The translations under genes were made by a program, and so were the position numbers. A stretch of 51,301 nt of DNA, taken from positions 1-51,301 of the forward strand of contig JAAXXR010000008.1 of the NCBI GenBank assembly GCA_013334335.1, given 5' to 3'. Position 1 is the stretch's first letter. Each line of letters opens with the position of its first letter. This DNA is from Chlorobiaceae bacterium. Lineage in GTDB: Bacteria; Bacteroidota; Chlorobiia; Chlorobiales; Chlorobiaceae. The notes below the pieces were generated by a model. The model searched no databases, had not been told where the DNA came from, and was given only the letters and a program-made list of their open reading frames with translations. This document shows, one piece after another, positions 11,470 to 20,499 of this stretch.

Positions 11470-12828
11470 ATGGCAGGTCAGAGGGGTGAGCGGAGCGTCT
11501 TGTTGATCGTCGGCGCGGGGGCGTCCGGTATGCTGGCGGCCGTTTCAGCCCGCCAGGCCGCGCGGGAACTCGGCATAGGCGACCTGAGGCTCAGGATCAT
11601 GCTGCTCGAGCGAAATCAGAAACCTGGAGCGAAGATCGCCATATCCGGTGGTGGGCACTGCAATATCACCCATGACGGGCCGGTCGACCGCCTGCTCGAT
11701 CGTGGATTTACCAGGAAAAACGAACAGCGTTTCGTCAGGCCGTCGATCTACTCCTTCACGAACGGTGACCTGCTCGCACTTCTCGCCAGCTACGGGGTGC
11801 CGACTGCTCCTCGCGAGGATGGCCGGGTGTTTCCGGTTTCAGGTGTTGCGCTGGATGTCGTCGCCGCCATACGGCGAATGCTCCAGGACTCGTTGGCAGA
11901 AGTGCACACCGGCACCAGGGTGGAGGGCATGGAGGTGGGCGACCGGGGGGTCCGGCTTCGGGCCGGAGAGGCCTGCTTTGAATCTGATTCGGTGATCCTG
12001 GCTGCCGGTGGCAGCGCATGGGGCTCTTCCGGTACGACCGGAGACGGGGTTCGTCTTGCTGCCTCCATCGGACATGCCGTGGTGCCGGTCCTTCCGGCGC
12101 TTGCCCCGGTGTTTCTGAGTACGCCTCCGGATCCCGGGCTTGTCGGGGTGACGCTGCGCGGGGTCGGACTGGTCGTCGAATCGAACCGCGGAAGCGATTT
12201 CCGGAGAGGCGATCTGCTGGTCAGCCATCGGGGCATCTCGGGCCCGGCATGCCTCTCGCTCTCGCGTTCAGTCTCCGAAATGCTGGCAGGAGGAGGGGCG
12301 GCGCCAAGGCTATTCGCCGATTTTTTCCCGAGCCATGACCCACAGGCGGTTTCCACTTTTGTCCTCGATCAGGCGGCACGTAACGGTACCCAGTTCGTCC
12401 GCACCTTTCTGCAGCGCTGCCCGATCGCTCCGGAGACGCTTTCGGAGCGGAATCCAGATGCGTCGGTTCAGACCGAGACCATCCCGAACGCTTTCGTGCC
12501 GGAAATCATGACGAGGGCCGGTATCGGCCGGGAGCAGACGCTCAGCGTGCTGACGCGTCAACAGCGGCTCGAACTTGCCGGAGTGCTGAAAAGGTTCGTG
12601 CTTGGCACGGCACGCACCGTGCCGCTCGACAAGGCGGAAGTCTCGGCCGGTGGAGTGTCCCTGACCGAGATCGACCCCAAAACCATGCGCTCTCGCCTGC
12701 ACCCCCGGCTTTTCTGCTGTGGCGAGCTACTTGACTATGCAGGAGAGGTTGGTGGTTTCAATCTGCAGGCGGCATTTTCGACCGGCTGGGTCGCCGGTCG
12801 CCATGCCGTTCGTGAACTGTTCAGCTGA
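11470..12828 (+). CDS. HI0933-family FAD-dependent oxidoreductase
   Basis: The 452-residue flavoprotein starts at ATG 11470 with an AAGGA sequence just upstream. It has the dinucleotide-binding VGAGASGMLAA, the family-diagnostic segment KPGAKIAISGGGHCNITH and the C-terminal CCGELLDYAGEVGGFNLQ with AFSTGWVAG, all features of the HI0933/YhiN family. These proteins bind FAD; their reaction is not settled. It follows the exporter operon after 78 bases and converges with the repeat-protein gene, whose stop is 9 bases away. Confidence 0.92.
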   Translation: MAGQRGERSVLLIVGAGASGMLAAVSARQAARELGIGDLRLRIMLLERNQKPGAKIAISGGGHCNITHDGPVDRLLDRGFTRKNEQRFVRPSIYSFTNGDLLALLASYGVPTAPREDGRVFPVSGVALDVVAAIRRMLQDSLAEVHTGTRVEGMEVGDRGVRLRAGEACFESDSVILAAGGSAWGSSGTTGDGVRLAASIGHAVVPVLPALAPVFLSTPPDPGLVGVTLRGVGLVVESNRGSDFRRGDLLVSHRGISGPACLSLSRSVSEMLAGGGAAPRLFADFFPSHDPQAVSTFVLDQAARNGTQFVRTFLQRCPIAPETLSERNPDASVQTETIPNAFVPEIMTRAGIGREQTLSVLTRQQRLELAGVLKRFVLGTARTVPLDKAEVSAGGVSLTEIDPKTMRSRLHPRLFCCGELLDYAGEVGGFNLQAAFSTGWVAGRHAVRELFS

Positions 12829-12837
12829 GCACGCTCC

Positions 12838-13770
12838 TCAGCTTGCGCAGGAGTAGCCCGGATTGGACGCTTTGCGGTCGAACGGAAGCACCCTGATCTG
12901 ACACTGCGCCAGGAGAAACGAATGCTGGTGCTCCTCGAAGACGATCCGGCCTCCGCTGAAGCGGACCTTCAGGGGGACTACCACTTTACGCTCCGCACCG
13001 CAAGGGTTGTTCTTCAGCCCGGGGGCAAAACGGTGCTCATCTCCAAGCTGATCGATGACGCTGAATTCCTCCGCGGTCGTCTTGAGCGCGCGGATGGTCC
13101 CATCCGGATTGAACTCAAGCGAGTTCAGGTCGCCGTGGATGCCCTGCGGGTCGTTGTCGTAAGCGGTGATGATCCCGACCGGGGTCTCGACTCTGACCAC
13201 ACCGGCGGGTTCGAGCGATTTCAAGGATCCATCCTCGTGGAACGACATCCCCGTCCTGACCCTGAACTCTCCTGCCGGGGTGAGTACCGTAATCAGCTCC
13301 CCGGGCCAGAGGGTCAGGCTTTTCAGGGCTCCTCCCTCATAGAACTGCAATCCAATGAATTTTGCCGTCAGCGTCCCGATCGGAGCGTTGATCGAGATCG
13401 TTTCCGCCAGTTCGTATTCGTTCTTTGCGGTCCAGAATCCGCTGAGTTTTCCGTCCAGCGGGAATATTCGCTTGATACTCCCCGATTCGTGGAAGGTGAC
13501 CAGTTCGGCGGGAACCGGACCGACTGGCGTTTCCAGCATGGTCTTCGACTGCAATGCGACCGATTTGATCGCTCCGCTTTTGTAGAAATAGAGGGGTTTG
13601 GCTGTCCGGCGCCCCATGTCTTCCGACTCATAGAGCGGGACAAGGTTGCCGTATGGCGTTAACAGGAGGTTCTCCTTGCTGACGAGGCATCCGTCGGTTT
13701 TGCCGTTGGAGTAGAGGGTTCTGAATTCAACGCCGTCGAGCTCTCCGTAAGATGTGGTAAAACTGGTCAT
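12838..13770 (-). CDS. Repeat protein with alternating TP-x-G and FxxxGxxKS modules
   Basis: No signal peptide or membrane segment is seen in this 310-residue product. It is built of degenerate repeats. The element FYKSGAIKS recurs at about 62-70, 93-101, 143-151, 177-185 and 220-228, always aromatic-x-x-x-Gly-x-(I/L)-(K/R). A TP-x-G strand such as METPVG recurs between them (about 39, 81, 130, 164 and 197). This recalls MORN and YwqK-type beta-hairpin repeats, but I cannot assign a known family. The last about 60 residues lack the repeat and contain three cysteines. A near-consensus sigma-54 site lies upstream. A soluble beta-solenoid-like scaffold is my inference. Confidence 0.75.
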   Translation of the reverse strand: MTSFTTSYGELDGVEFRTLYSNGKTDGCLVSKENLLLTPYGNLVPLYESEDMGRRTAKPLYFYKSGAIKSVALQSKTMLETPVGPVPAELVTFHESGSIKRIFPLDGKLSGFWTAKNEYELAETISINAPIGTLTAKFIGLQFYEGGALKSLTLWPGELITVLTPAGEFRVRTGMSFHEDGSLKSLEPAGVVRVETPVGIITAYDNDPQGIHGDLNSLEFNPDGTIRALKTTAEEFSVIDQLGDEHRFAPGLKNNPCGAERKVVVPLKVRFSGGRIVFEEHQHSFLLAQCQIRVLPFDRKASNPGYSCAS

Positions 13771-14106: not shown

Positions 14107-16221
14107 TTATTTTTTCCCGTTTTTCCGGAGCACCTTTTCGGTGATCTCCTGTTCAATGCCTGAAGAGATGGAGAGGCTCCGGAACAGATCGAGAAGGTTC
14201 TGCTCTATGGTCAGGTTAAGATTGACCGGACGGCCGTTCTGGAATTCCGGATTGTGTCCCTTGAGCTGCAGGGAGATATGGGACTTTCCGTCCGATGTCA
14301 TGGTGATCGACGAGATCAGTTCGGAGTAGAGGAAATTGCCGAGTGCTTCGTAGGTCATCCGCATGCCGGCGTTGGCCAGGGCCCGCTCTTCCGGTGTGGT
14401 GGAGTAGATGATCTGTCCTGAACGTTCGGCATCGATGCCGCCGTCGGGAATGCTGAACGAATCGCCATCGAGCATGATCGGAAGGCGACCCCGTACCGTG
14501 CCGGTGGCGAAGATTTTTTTGGCCCCCTGCAGGTCGAGCAGTTTCTGGAGCGGGATGCCGTTGACCTCCACCACGGTTGCTGCTTGCCTGGTCGACAGGT
14601 TGTAGTCGACGTGGTGGAGCGACACGGAGCCGTCGAAGAATCCGGCTGAAAACCCGGAAAGAGCGACGATCGATGGGTGCTGCCGTTCACCCGGCAGGTC
14701 GAGGATGCCCTTGAGTCCGGTAAGTTCGAGCTCTCCGCCCTCCGATTTCCGCTTGAGGCTTTTCAGGGTAAAGCCGATCTTGGTCTTGCCGGAGTACTCA
14801 CGGTCAAGCAGGATGGACGGTTCACTGAAGTTCCAGACCACCTCCGCACCACCCCCACTGAACGGCGAGGCCTCGGATCCTTGGGTTCTTCTGGCGGCTT
14901 TCTGCCGTATCGTCCCCCCGCCGGGCGAAACCAGCTTCGCCTGGCGCACCGCGATGCCGTCACGCGAGAACGAAAGCGGAATCGTGCCGCTCACCTGGCC
15001 CTTCATCTTCCCGCTGAACTCCCCGTGCAGCCGCAGCCGATCGAAGAGGGGGATCCTGTTCAGTCTCACCGTGCATGACGCCTTGTCGCTGCCGGCGTCA
15101 TACCGGGCAGGGGAAGCCGTGAGCGATCCCCCCAGGAGCCTGGTCGAAAGTCCGCCGAGACGGATTCCCGAAAGCTTCTCGTCCTTCGCGTTGAGGGTCA
15201 CTTCAGCATTCAGTCCGCTGAGCAGCTTTGGGCCACCGCTCTTTCCTCCGGCGTCGAAGGAGAAGAGTGGCTTGCCTCCGCTGCCTTTCCAGACCAGCAG
15301 TGTTCCCGGTCCGGCCTCGACCTCGCCGTTTCTGATCCTGACGGTCGTGTCGAGGTATTCGACAGGCAGGGAGCCGCTCATGACCCCGGACACCGATGGA
15401 TTGGGGTTTCGGATACCGGCGAGCTCGGGGATTCGCTCAAGCGGCACGCTGTCGAGTTGCAGGGTGAAGGCGCTCTGTTTCGTCCTGAGGCTGTATTCGA
15501 TCGTTGGCGTCGACGCCCTGATGCCGAACAGATCCACCGAGCAGTCGCTGAAGATCAGCGTGCATGGTTTTTCAGGGTTGCGCGCCAAGCCGAAGGTGGC
15601 GGCAAACCCCGAGAGGGGGGTTCGCTTTCCATCTGAAAAAAGCGATGCGGCCTGGAATCGGGATGGCTGCTGCAGCCAGTTTGCCGACTTGGTGAGGAGT
15701 GCGCGGTACCTGACCTCCTCGAGTTTCAGCTTGCCTGTTTCAACCTTTCCGCCGTTGACGGCATAGGCTACCGAATCTGCCGTGAAGCCGACGGCGAGGC
15801 CGCGCTTCCGGAAGAGGTCGACACGGCCGGTTATGAGGGGACGGCTGTCCCTGAAGAGGATCCCGGCCGGTTTCATGAGTGCGTCGAGGGAGTCGGCTTC
15901 GAGCGTGAGCCGGTAGGCACTTCCCGTTGCCGATGGAGCGCTTCTCCAGGTAAGTCTGCCGTTATGTACCCTGACCACGAAGGTTGCGGCTATGCCGGTG
16001 CATGAGTCCGGAGGGGTGGTCACGACGCCGTCAAGACGTCCGAACGAGACTCCTCCGGGACCCGGCCGGCCAAAGTCGTGCAGTACCAGCCGGATACCTT
16101 TACCGGCGGCTACCCGGTCGACGACATCCTGCGCGTACCACGGGAAGGCGAACCAGGCCCCTGCGGCCGCAATGACCGCAAGGAGGATGATTGTCCCCAG
16201 GATGCGAAGCGGCCATTTCAC
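14107..16221 (-). CDS. ydbH: YdbH-like AsmA-superfamily intermembrane transport protein
   Basis: The 704-residue product starts at a GTG (16221) with one N-terminal membrane helix (about 6-28, LGTIILLAVIAAAGAWFAF). It continues as a long beta-rich periplasmic part with recurrent short strands, the architecture of AsmA-like and YdbH proteins. Its C-terminal third has the segment GTVRGRLPIMLDGDSFSIPDGGI, typical of YdbH. In E. coli, YdbH, TamB and YhdP redundantly carry phospholipid across the periplasm, and YdbH works with YnbE and YdbL. Homologues of both partners are immediately upstream. It is shorter than the E. coli protein (879 residues). The assignment rests mainly on the gene set plus architecture. 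Confidence 0.8.
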   Translation of the reverse strand: MKWPLRILGTIILLAVIAAAGAWFAFPWYAQDVVDRVAAGKGIRLVLHDFGRPGPGGVSFGRLDGVVTTPPDSCTGIAATFVVRVHNGRLTWRSAPSATGSAYRLTLEADSLDALMKPAGILFRDSRPLITGRVDLFRKRGLAVGFTADSVAYAVNGGKVETGKLKLEEVRYRALLTKSANWLQQPSRFQAASLFSDGKRTPLSGFAATFGLARNPEKPCTLIFSDCSVDLFGIRASTPTIEYSLRTKQSAFTLQLDSVPLERIPELAGIRNPNPSVSGVMSGSLPVEYLDTTVRIRNGEVEAGPGTLLVWKGSGGKPLFSFDAGGKSGGPKLLSGLNAEVTLNAKDEKLSGIRLGGLSTRLLGGSLTASPARYDAGSDKASCTVRLNRIPLFDRLRLHGEFSGKMKGQVSGTIPLSFSRDGIAVRQAKLVSPGGGTIRQKAARRTQGSEASPFSGGGAEVVWNFSEPSILLDREYSGKTKIGFTLKSLKRKSEGGELELTGLKGILDLPGERQHPSIVALSGFSAGFFDGSVSLHHVDYNLSTRQAATVVEVNGIPLQKLLDLQGAKKIFATGTVRGRLPIMLDGDSFSIPDGGIDAERSGQIIYSTTPEERALANAGMRMTYEALGNFLYSELISSITMTSDGKSHISLQLKGHNPEFQNGRPVNLNLTIEQNLLDLFRSLSISSGIEQEITEKVLRKNGKK

Positions 16222-16227
16222 GTCCGG

Positions 16228-16584
16228 TCACTTTTTGGACCACTTGCCCTGGATTTGCACCCAGGTGCCTGCAGGGAATCCGGGAAAGCGTTTTTCAAAT
16301 GTTCTCTGGCCGGCGACCTCAATGGAGATGCTGTTTTTCGAGGCGATCTCAGCATAAGCGGCACGTCGCTCCTGATTGACGGTGCCGACCAGCGTCTGGG
16401 CTTCAGCGCCGGCCCCGGGAGGGATGGCGATATAGCCGCTGTCCACCTCTCCTACCAGTCCGCCGGATCTGGCAGTTTCAAGGTCGAGCGAGAATGCTGC
16501 AGTCGTTGATGCGGCCAGCAATGCGAGAAGCAGCGCGAAGGTCCTGATGAGCGAAGTCGCCCGGTATGCTATGGTATGATACAT
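16228..16584 (-). CDS. ydbL: YdbL-family (DUF1318) periplasmic protein
   Basis: The 118-residue product has a signal peptide (hydrophobic stretch about 13-31, ending ASTTAAFS). A short mature domain of the YdbL/DUF1318 type follows: RSGGLVGEVDSGYIAIPPGA, then TVNQERRAAYAEIASKN and, at the end, GTWVQIQGKWSKK. The ATG at 16584 follows GGGAGGATC at good spacing. In E. coli YdbL is a periplasmic helper that modulates the YdbH-YnbE interaction. It lies 17 bases after the ynbE-like gene and 6 bases before the ydbH-like gene. Confidence 0.88.
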   Translation of the reverse strand: MYHTIAYRATSLIRTFALLLALLAASTTAAFSLDLETARSGGLVGEVDSGYIAIPPGAGAEAQTLVGTVNQERRAAYAEIASKNSISIEVAGQRTFEKRFPGFPAGTWVQIQGKWSKK

Positions 16585-16601
16585 GAGTGATCCTCCCTTG
16601 A

Positions 16602-16808
16602 TTAAAAGATGTCTTTTCGCTTCTCAACCAGGCTGTCGATGTCCCTGTCGACTTTCACCCGGATTTCATGGTCGATCTTGATGTTCATGTTGATCGTGAT
16701 TGGCTTGTCCGGCGCCTCCACCCGTACGGTCGGGCTGCAAGCGGTAGCCAGGAGGCTCGCCATGAGCAGGAGGCCTGCCGGCAGGGCGTACGCAGTTGTT
16801 TTTTTCAT
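16602..16808 (-). CDS. ynbE: YnbE-like outer-membrane lipoprotein
   Basis: The ATG at 16808 gives a 68-residue product; a TTG further upstream is less likely. A lipoprotein signal ends with LATAC, whose cysteine would be acylated. The mature part contains PITINMNIKIDHEIRVKVD, nearly the YnbE signature. In E. coli, YnbE multimers form the outer-membrane end of the YdbH bridge by beta-strand augmentation. It is first of the three ydbH-type genes and follows a DUF2141 gene by 51 bases. Confidence 0.88.
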   Translation of the reverse strand: MKKTTAYALPAGLLLMASLLATACSPTVRVEAPDKPITINMNIKIDHEIRVKVDRDIDSLVEKRKDIF

Positions 16809-16859
16809 GTCGTGCGGATATGTTTTTTTATGTGTCAACAGACTTTTTCCCCACCTTGG

Positions 16860-17306
16860 TTAAAAATAGTTCATATTGATTTTCAGGGCAAGTTCCCGGC
16901 ACTCAAGTTTCACGAGCGACTCGTCGAATGAGGGCGGACCGCGCCGGATTTTCGGGTTGTTCGAGGTGCCGAAGCCCTCTTTCGGGATGCCGATGAAGGT
17001 CTTGTCCATCTTGTGGTTGCCGTTTTCGTCATGAAGCACGCTGACCGCATAGACGCCGTAAGGCAGATTGTCGAATACGACCTCGCAACCTTCGCCTGCC
17101 GCAACGCTTCGTCCTTCGAGGGCGCGTTCCGGTCTGTCGGGGAAGCCCTGTTTCGCCTGGTAGATGGCGACGCCGATCACCCCTTTTGAGTTGCGGAGTT
17201 TATCAACGCTGACCCGGATGACACCGGTTTCCGTTTTCGTTTCCTCCGCTTGCGCACTGCCTGACGCCGAAGCGAGCAGGAGGAGCGCCAGCATAAATTT
17301 CTTCAT
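16860..17306 (-). CDS. Exported DUF2141 protein
   Basis: The start is taken at ATG 17306, preceded by AGGAA, giving 148 residues; the frame extends further upstream without support. A signal peptide (MKKFMLALLLLASASGSAQA) precedes one DUF2141 domain with VIRVSVDKLRNSKGVIGVAIY, the LPYGVYAVSVLHDENGN segment and FGIPKEGFG-like residues (IGIPKEGFGTSNNP). The fold is predicted beta-sandwich-like and periplasmic; the function of DUF2141 is unknown. It heads the same-strand group with ynbE, ydbL and ydbH, suggesting an envelope role. Confidence 0.88.
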   Translation of the reverse strand: MKKFMLALLLLASASGSAQAEETKTETGVIRVSVDKLRNSKGVIGVAIYQAKQGFPDRPERALEGRSVAAGEGCEVVFDNLPYGVYAVSVLHDENGNHKMDKTFIGIPKEGFGTSNNPKIRRGPPSFDESLVKLECRELALKINMNYF

Positions 17307-17547
17307 GGTTCCTGATTTCTGTGTGATGTCCCGCAGTTCCTTCTGCAGACTCAACCTGAATATATCTACATGGACGCGTTATTCCCGGCAACTTCCCGGC
17401 AAAGATTGTCGTCTTTGTCTGCCGTTGTCCAAGGGGACCGCGCTTTGGATAGTCGTTCCCCGGATGGGGGGGTGAAGACGATTGTTGTGCCAGGTCACGG
17501 TTTGGTTGTTAAATTGTATTATGCAAGTAAACAGCAGGGATCGTACG
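17307..17547. promoter_or_regulatory. Divergent control region between the DUF2141 operon and the CheB/CheR gene
   Basis: Both flanking genes start at the edges of this 241-base gap, so two outward promoters must lie here. I see no strong -35/-10 pair or long palindrome. The part from 17480 to 17530 is the most AT-rich and is the best place for the plus-strand promoter. Confidence 0.4.
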
Positions 17548-20499
17548 ATGAAAAAAAAGTTGTCAGCTCCTGTGCCGAAAGTAACATCCACAGAATCTGC
17601 GGTACCAGGAAAGGTAAACCCCAAGGTCCCGGTTGTCGGCATCGGTGCGTCGGCGGGTGGTCTGGAAGCGATCGAGATGTTTCTGAAACATGTTCCGGTA
17701 GCGAGTGGCATGGCCTTCGTTATCGTTCAGCATCTCGATCCGGCGCGCAAAGGTTTCATGGTGGAACTGCTGCAGCGGGTGACGCCGATGCCGGTCGTCC
17801 AGGTTGTCGACAATACCAGGATCGAAGCGGACCACGTGTATGTCATTCCTCCGAACAAGGACATGTCTCTCCTGAAGGGGTTGCTCAACCTGATCGATCC
17901 CGTCAAGCCTCATGGCCTTCGCCTGCCTATCGATTTTTTTTTCCGTTCCCTGGCTGAAGACCTTCAGCAGTACAGCATCGGCGTCATTCTTTCCGGAATG
18001 GGCTCTGACGGCACCCTCGGGCTCAGGGCCATCAAGGAGAAAGGGGGCGGCGTATTCGTTCAGGATCCGTCTTCAGCGAAGTATGACAGCATGCCCCGCA
18101 GTGCCATCGATGCAGGGCTGGCCGATGTCGTTTCCACTCCGGAGGCGCTTCCGGAAAGGATTGTCGCCTATGTAAAGTTTCAGCCCTCTCCCGCAAAACC
18201 TGCTGAGCCGCTTGAGCAGAAACACCTGAGCGGCCTGGAGAAAGTACTGCTTATTCTGCGTGCCCATACCCGCCAGGATTTTTCGTTGTACAAGAAGAGC
18301 ACCGTCTATCGACGCATAGAACGGAGGATGGGTGTACACCAGATCGAAAACATCGCCAGCTACATTCGCCTGCTCCAGGACAACCCGCACGAAACGGAGC
18401 TGCTGTTCCGGGAGTTGCTGATCGGCGTGACCAGTTTTTTCCGCGACCCCGAATCCTGGGATACCCTCAGGAGCATGGCCATCCCTGCACTCCTGAATTC
18501 GCGTCCGGGTGGTAAGACCGTGCGGGCCTGGGTTGCAGGCTGTTCTACCGGAGAAGAGGCCTATTCACTGGCCATCGTGTTCAAGGAAGCGCTCGAACTG
18601 CTGAATCCACCCGGAACCTGGCGCCTGCAGATATTCGCCACCGACCTGGACAAGGACGCCATCGAACGGGCACGACAGGCGCTGTATCCGCCCAACATCG
18701 CTGCGGATGTCTCCCCGGAGAGGCTTCACCGGTACTTCATACAGGAAGAGCAGGGATGGCGAATCAGCCGGGATATCCGCGAAATGGTGGTATTCGCCCC
18801 GCAGAACGTGATCATGGATCCCCCCTTCACCCGCATTGATATCCTGGTGTGCAGGAACCTCATGATCTACTGGGAGCAGGAGCTGCAGAATAAGCTGCTG
18901 CCACTGTTTCACTACAGCCTTAATCCGGGTGGACTGCTGTTTCTTGGAAGCGCCGAGACAGTTGGCCCGTACTCCACGATGTTCGAACCGATCTTCGGCA
19001 AGCTCCGGATTTTCCGGAAAGTGGAGCATGGCGGCAGCTTCGATGCGTTCGAATTCCCGTCGTCCTACGGCAGTGCAGTAACGGGTGTCCAGGAGAAGGA
19101 AGAGCTGCCGCAAGGGAGCCGGCGTCAGGTATCCAACATGAAAGCTCTGGCCGATCAGCTGATTTTGCAGAATTTTGCTCCTTCAGCGGTCCTGACCAAC
19201 GACAAGGGGGATATCATCTACATCAGCGGCCGGACTGGCAAGTACCTTGAGCCGGCAGCAGGCAAGGCGAACTGGAATATTTTCGCCATGGCTCGAGAAG
19301 GACTCCGCTATGAACTTGACCTGCTGTTCGGCATGAGTTCTGCTCATCAAGAGCCGGTTACCAGAAAGGGGGTCACGATCGGTTCGGACGGTGAGCGTGT
19401 GATGGTGAACCTGACCGTCCAACGGGTTGAACAGCCCGAAGCACTCAAGGATCTTGTGCTGGTGGTGTTCAGTATGGCGGAAAAACCTGTGCTTGAGACA
19501 AGGAGTGACATCGGGTCAGCAAACGGGCCTGTCGATGAGACCGGCGTGGCTCGGATCGATTCACTCGAACGGGAGCTCAAGCAATCCCGCCAGGAGATAC
19601 AGTCTGTCCGTGAGGATATGCAGGCCTCTCAGGAGGAGCTCAATTCGGCCAATGAGGAGCTGCAGTCGGCCAATGAAGAGTTGCAGAGCACCAACGAGGA
19701 ACTGACGACCTCAAAAGAGGAGCTGCAGTCGCTCAACGAGGAGCTGCAAACGGTCAACCACGAACTCCAGTCTAAGGTCAACGAGCTTTCGCATGCGAAC
19801 AATGACATGAAAAACCTGCTGAACAGCACCGATATCGCTACGCTGTTCCTTGACGAGTCGCTCAACATCCGCAGGTTCACCACCAGGACGGCCAGCATCA
19901 TCAAGCTGATCGCCAGCGATACCGGCAGGCCCATAACCGACATCGTCACCGAATTGGCCTATCCATCGCTTGCGGACGATGCAAGAGAGGTTCTGCAGAC
20001 GCTGGTGTTCCGGGAAAAGCAGGTTCCTGCGACAGATGGCCGGTGGTTCAATGTCAAAATCATGCCGTATCGGACACAGGAGAACCGGATTGATGGCCTG
20101 GTGATCACCTTTACCGACATCAGCCTCGCCAAGCGGTTGGAGATGCGGCTGCGGGTGGATGAGGAGCGATACGTTTCCGCGTTTGCCATTGCCGGGGCAA
20201 TTGTCGATACGGTTGACCGGGATTTGCGGTACACCTGGTTCTGCGATCCACAACAGCTCATGATTCCACAAACGGCCATGGGCCGACGGGACGATGAGCT
20301 GGGCCTGCGTCCCTATGCCACCGAGCTCATGCAGATGAAGCGTTCAGCTCTCGACAGCGGAAATGAAGTCTGCAAAGAGCTGTCGATCAGGGTGTCAGAC
20401 GGAAAGCTGCTTTCCTATCATGTTACCTCAAAACCGCTGAGATCGCCATCAGGTGAGCCGTCCGGAGTGCTGACGGTTGCCTTGCCGTTAATGTCATAA
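17548..20499 (+). CDS. CheB methylesterase - CheR methyltransferase - PAS fusion protein
   Basis: I start at ATG 17548, which has AGGGAT upstream, not at the earlier in-frame codons. The 983-residue product opens with a CheB methylesterase domain without receiver; the catalytic triad appears as S35 (GIGASAGG), H62 (VQHLD) and D154 (GMGSDGT). A CheR domain follows (about 205-480) with RRMGV, TSFFRDPESW, AGCSTGEEAYS and CRNLMIYW. A long heptad coiled coil built of repeated NEELQS/T units (about 670-750) leads to PAS-like domains. There is no kinase domain here; the next gene supplies one. Such fusions are usually sensory, not flagellar. Confidence 0.93.
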   Translation: MKKKLSAPVPKVTSTESAVPGKVNPKVPVVGIGASAGGLEAIEMFLKHVPVASGMAFVIVQHLDPARKGFMVELLQRVTPMPVVQVVDNTRIEADHVYVIPPNKDMSLLKGLLNLIDPVKPHGLRLPIDFFFRSLAEDLQQYSIGVILSGMGSDGTLGLRAIKEKGGGVFVQDPSSAKYDSMPRSAIDAGLADVVSTPEALPERIVAYVKFQPSPAKPAEPLEQKHLSGLEKVLLILRAHTRQDFSLYKKSTVYRRIERRMGVHQIENIASYIRLLQDNPHETELLFRELLIGVTSFFRDPESWDTLRSMAIPALLNSRPGGKTVRAWVAGCSTGEEAYSLAIVFKEALELLNPPGTWRLQIFATDLDKDAIERARQALYPPNIAADVSPERLHRYFIQEEQGWRISRDIREMVVFAPQNVIMDPPFTRIDILVCRNLMIYWEQELQNKLLPLFHYSLNPGGLLFLGSAETVGPYSTMFEPIFGKLRIFRKVEHGGSFDAFEFPSSYGSAVTGVQEKEELPQGSRRQVSNMKALADQLILQNFAPSAVLTNDKGDIIYISGRTGKYLEPAAGKANWNIFAMAREGLRYELDLLFGMSSAHQEPVTRKGVTIGSDGERVMVNLTVQRVEQPEALKDLVLVVFSMAEKPVLETRSDIGSANGPVDETGVARIDSLERELKQSRQEIQSVREDMQASQEELNSANEELQSANEELQSTNEELTTSKEELQSLNEELQTVNHELQSKVNELSHANNDMKNLLNSTDIATLFLDESLNIRRFTTRTASIIKLIASDTGRPITDIVTELAYPSLADDAREVLQTLVFREKQVPATDGRWFNVKIMPYRTQENRIDGLVITFTDISLAKRLEMRLRVDEERYVSAFAIAGAIVDTVDRDLRYTWFCDPQQLMIPQTAMGRRDDELGLRPYATELMQMKRSALDSGNEVCKELSIRVSDGKLLSYHVTSKPLRSPSGEPSGVLTVALPLMS

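Follow-up and report, generated by a model that had tools for sequence, protein, structure and literature searches.

The locus studied here raises a question in two parts: whether a green sulfur bacterium encodes the YdbH-YnbE-YdbL system known from E. coli, and whether the DUF2141 gene preceding it belongs to that system. In E. coli, YdbH, TamB and YhdP are mutually redundant and essential together (PMC8593681, PMC8912898), and YdbH is described as interacting with YnbE in a passage of PMC12977461 that cites Kumar et al. 2024. The window, by which we mean the whole analysed stretch of 51,301 nucleotides from a Chlorobiaceae bacterium, carries at 14107-17306 four tightly spaced minus-strand genes, transcribed in the order DUF2141-ynbE-ydbL-ydbH. 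These are listed below with two neighbouring genes that serve as locus markers in relatives:

16860..17306, minus strand: DUF2141 gene, a syntenic neighbour encoding an exported protein of 148 aa with an ATG start (PF09912)
16602..16808, minus strand: ynbE, encoding a predicted outer-membrane lipoprotein of 68 aa from the ATG, with the lipobox LATAC (PF13617)
16228..16584, minus strand: ydbL, encoding an exported DUF1318 protein of 118 aa (PF07027)
14107..16221, minus strand: ydbH, encoding a predicted AsmA-superfamily, inner-membrane-anchored beta-groove protein of 704 aa (short form) with a GTG start (PF11739)
12838..13770, minus strand: gene for a conserved 310-aa protein of unassigned function, downstream of the trio; first locus marker
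11470..12828, plus strand: gene for an HI0933-like flavoprotein (PF03486, E 1e-63); second locus marker

An earlier note, made from the letters of the window, had read these as four packed minus-strand genes of the said families in a likely green sulfur bacterium, and both points held. The Pfam scores are far above chance for YdbH (PF11739, E 2.7e-86; 291.7 bits against a cut-off of 26.3), YnbE (PF13617, E 1.8e-17; 63.2 bits, cut-off 25.8), YdbL (PF07027, E 8.9e-23; 81.1 bits, cut-off 27) and DUF2141 (PF09912, E 1.7e-34; 118.5 bits, cut-off 24.4), and the genome forms one genus-level group with Chlorobaculum and one family-level group with Chlorobium.

Judged by sequence, the two smaller members of the trio are clearly homologous to their E. 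coli counterparts. YnbE aligns with E. coli YnbE over 54 aa at 50% identity (E 2e-22) and shares with it the conserved ITINMNxKI-HEI core; its lipobox cysteine, Cys24, is invariant across 15 sequences, and an alternative upstream start (TTG at 16838) would lengthen the protein to 78 aa. YdbL, like the E. coli protein a member of the DUF1318 family, is 34% identical to it (E 4e-18); YdbL may have a role in YnbE assembly.

The assignment of YdbH itself draws on several lines of evidence. PF11739 is its sole Pfam match, with no better fit to TamB, AsmA or YhdP, and the YdbH proteins of related Chlorobiaceae behave in the same way, with 46 of 46 matching this family and none any other. The best-matching stretch, residues 507-697, aligns with positions 702-892 of the 893-position profile; the C-terminal YdbH domain, which is shared with E. 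coli and whose absence had been named beforehand as the outcome that would speak against the assignment, is thus present. The predicted structure (mean pLDDT 82.9) comprises an N-terminal helix at residues 3-38 followed by more than 40 strands, nearly all of it beta, as expected in a model of an AsmA-type bridge with a membrane-anchor helix and a long beta structure. A fold search of the PDB with this model returned weak generic beta matches only, such as LptD, and profile searches of PDB sequences gave no convincing match. Identity to E. coli YdbH is about 18-21% over the full length, with a weak C-terminal similarity (E 3e-5); T303, G305 and G308, three of the four residues hit by suppressor mutations in E. 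coli YdbH, are not conserved here, in a part where the alignment is loose. At about 704 aa the protein is also, unlike the E. coli protein of 879 aa, some 175 residues shorter.

Across the relatives YdbH falls into two length classes, of about 690-745 aa and, in seven Chlorobium-group genomes, of about 890-927 aa. The long proteins (888-927 aa; loci L063, L073 and L115-L119) form one clade and carry an extra internal stretch of ~190 residues relative to the short form, and their appearance maps to a single change on the YdbH tree, which was rooted on E. coli by a very long branch that makes the root unreliable. At one locus (L035; G002:C1:1562000-1574000), in a single-contig genome, ydbH is split between two reading frames, either as a pseudogene or through a sequencing frameshift.

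The gene order is equally constant. The trio reads ynbE-ydbL-ydbH in 60 of 60 related loci, a rotation relative to E. coli MG1655, in which the order is ydbH-ynbE-ydbL; the ydbH-first order recurs in three other Pseudomonadota, in a Pseudomonas aeruginosa plasmid record and, from reading frames, in Photobacterium and Azospirillum. The claim of the earlier note that the order is the same as in E. coli therefore has to be dropped. Since the order is kept in all 60 loci, and in differing neighbourhoods, the trio can be regarded as one unit; that exactly three genes stay together in varied surroundings supports its being a functional one.

Low full-length identity, the shorter protein, the rotated order and a distribution restricted to one family could all be taken to mean that these genes form some other AsmA-type system, with another cargo, that merely resembles YdbH. 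We regard this as unlikely, given that PF11739 is the only family YdbH matches, that both of its specific partners, YnbE and YdbL, adjoin ydbH in every one of the 60 loci, and that YnbE is half identical to its E. coli counterpart. We are instead confident that the trio encodes a YdbH-YnbE intermembrane lipid bridge with YdbL, and that the trio alone, to which DUF2141 is not required, is the conserved unit.

That a complete trio occurs outside Proteobacteria, as had been suggested, is confirmed by the finding of all three families in Chlorobiaceae. PF11739 is present in 71 of the 98 genomes of the class, all of them within the one family of 86 genomes (Chlorobiaceae) and in two genera; the trio is accordingly found in 71/86 Chlorobiaceae, and YnbE has a distribution nearly identical to that of YdbH. 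Among 394 genomes sampled across the phylum we found no YdbH in Bacteroidota outside Chlorobiaceae (2 of the 170 genera sampled are positive). This limitation to one family of the sampled Bacteroidota suggests either gain by transfer or survival in a single lineage. A contig scan for a donor with two peptide patterns gave Chlorobiaceae matches only, probably because both patterns came from an alignment that is almost wholly Chlorobiaceae. In the portion of the literature covered by our search, we found no account of this trio in Chlorobiaceae. One genome (G047) has two DUF2141-trio loci on separate contigs, C53 and C78 (L119 and L120); on C78 the contig ends within ydbH, and the genome may hold a second copy or be a mixed assembly.

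The earlier note had further proposed that DUF2141 is an added component or marks a lineage-specific version of the bridge, with its co-occurrence across relatives as a check and unlinking as the outcome that would count against it. The gene does lie on the same strand directly upstream, within 1 kb of ynbE, in 40 of the 70 trio loci, which come from both genera; in the window ~52 bp separate it from the ynbE ATG, and its product is exported, as are those of its neighbours. Against this, it is unlinked in the remaining 30 of 70, of which ~3 may reflect contig ends and ~27 are not so explained, and in one genome (G018) the trio sits at the usual locus with DUF2141 lost upstream. When uncertain rows are excluded, the linked and unlinked states require two changes on the YdbH tree.

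What DUF2141 does where the trio is missing points the same way. In genomes whose trio lies elsewhere (G001, G002, G004 and G015) or is absent (G009, G013 and G016), DUF2141 still precedes the 310-aa and HI0933-like genes, with a gap to the former of about 250-325 bp, often ~250 bp, at the trio site. In several Chlorobium-group genomes with no trio at the site (G036, G037, G052, G070 and G080) this block is again present, the gap being about 600-900 bp, while for some others (e.g., G035 and G051) one flank only, or neither, was recovered. A majority of the sampled relatives lacking the trio at this site retain DUF2141 ahead of the same downstream genes, and a tblastn search at E 1e-4 detected no trio remnants at such sites. 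Relocated trios have neighbours that differ from those at the usual locus. In one group, the relocated trios (L037, L043 and L045) lie just downstream of arsenite-exporter-like and arsenate-reductase-like genes, named by sequence resemblance. On the other side of DUF2141, the window encodes at 17482-20499 a large CheB-CheR-PAS fusion protein, divergently oriented from it, and such a fusion gene also adjoins DUF2141 in several trio-less relatives.

The location of DUF2141 is independent of that of the trio, and its spread is far wider: it occurs in 76 of the 139 Bacteroidota genera sampled for it, against 2/170 for YdbH, and is thus common in Bacteroidota that have no YdbH. E. coli, in turn, has the bridge and no DUF2141 match. 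Elsewhere, in Sphingomonadales, DUF2141 genes of unknown function adjoin crtG (PMC5989583), and a PDB fold search with DUF2141 found weak beta-sandwich resemblances only, none reaching E 0.001. A role for DUF2141 as an added or lineage-specific bridge component is, on grounds of synteny and distribution, decidedly improbable. Just as doubtful is a conditional variant, in which DUF2141 would be an accessory where the old arrangement is kept, expressed along with YnbE in the periplasm and modulating the bridge, and would have become dispensable or act remotely where the trio has been relocated. DUF2141 is probably a long-standing neighbour and not a working part of the bridge; the simplest reading is that it belongs to the locus, beside which the trio sits as a separate unit in many species. 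In some of these it may be co-transcribed with the trio without being required.

We also surveyed the other bridges with which YdbH might share its task. TamB is present in 91 of the 98 genomes of the class, including nearly all Chlorobiaceae, and YhdP (PF13116) was not found in any Chlorobiaceae; in the window's genome there was no match to AsmA (PF05170) either. TamB was likewise not found in this genome, which is 99.6% complete, and on that count YdbH could be the organism's only AsmA-like bridge. This is extremely unlikely, both from the prevalence of TamB in the class and from its genomic context: coaBC (named by sequence resemblance), which adjoins tamB in G013, is represented in the window's genome by its last ~60 codons only, at the very start of a contig (G000:C32:3-179). 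Because this neighbour is cut off at the contig start, the tamB locus probably falls in an assembly gap, and we rejected a real absence of TamB in the organism.

The trio, for its part, appears dispensable where TamB is present, since TamB is kept in all nine genomes that lack the trio and are at least 97% complete, in agreement with the redundancy described for E. coli. The Chlorobiaceae envelope is therefore likely to have two bridges, TamB and YdbH-YnbE with YdbL assisting, of which the second is dispensable. This trio should be distinguished from the TamB-TamL system of Bacteroidota and Chlorobiota (PMC12045153, PMC4494059), which it resembles in having an AsmA-superfamily envelope-spanning protein in the same bacterial group; the differences are that TamB is encoded separately, at a locus of its own, and belongs to another family (PF04357), and that TamL is an Omp85 lipoprotein and not a YnbE.

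By analogy with E. coli, the N-terminal helix would anchor YdbH in the inner membrane and a hydrophobic beta-groove would span the periplasm, with the C-terminal end of the protein meeting the strands of the outer-membrane lipoprotein YnbE. Phospholipid would pass via YdbH-YnbE to the outer membrane, YdbL would assist the bridge, and in Chlorobiaceae the whole may serve as a second, dispensable bridge in addition to TamB. The same three families adjoin one another here as in E. coli; unlike in E. coli, the host is a green sulfur bacterium, and YhdP was not detected alongside them.

The trio is thus a case of an ordinary function in an unusual host. With TamB and YdbH-YnbE and no detected YhdP, the Chlorobiaceae envelope seems to be a natural case with two bridges, and close relatives have TamB alone; for asking what YdbH-YnbE adds, this comparison would be simpler than the one in E. 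coli, where three bridges overlap.
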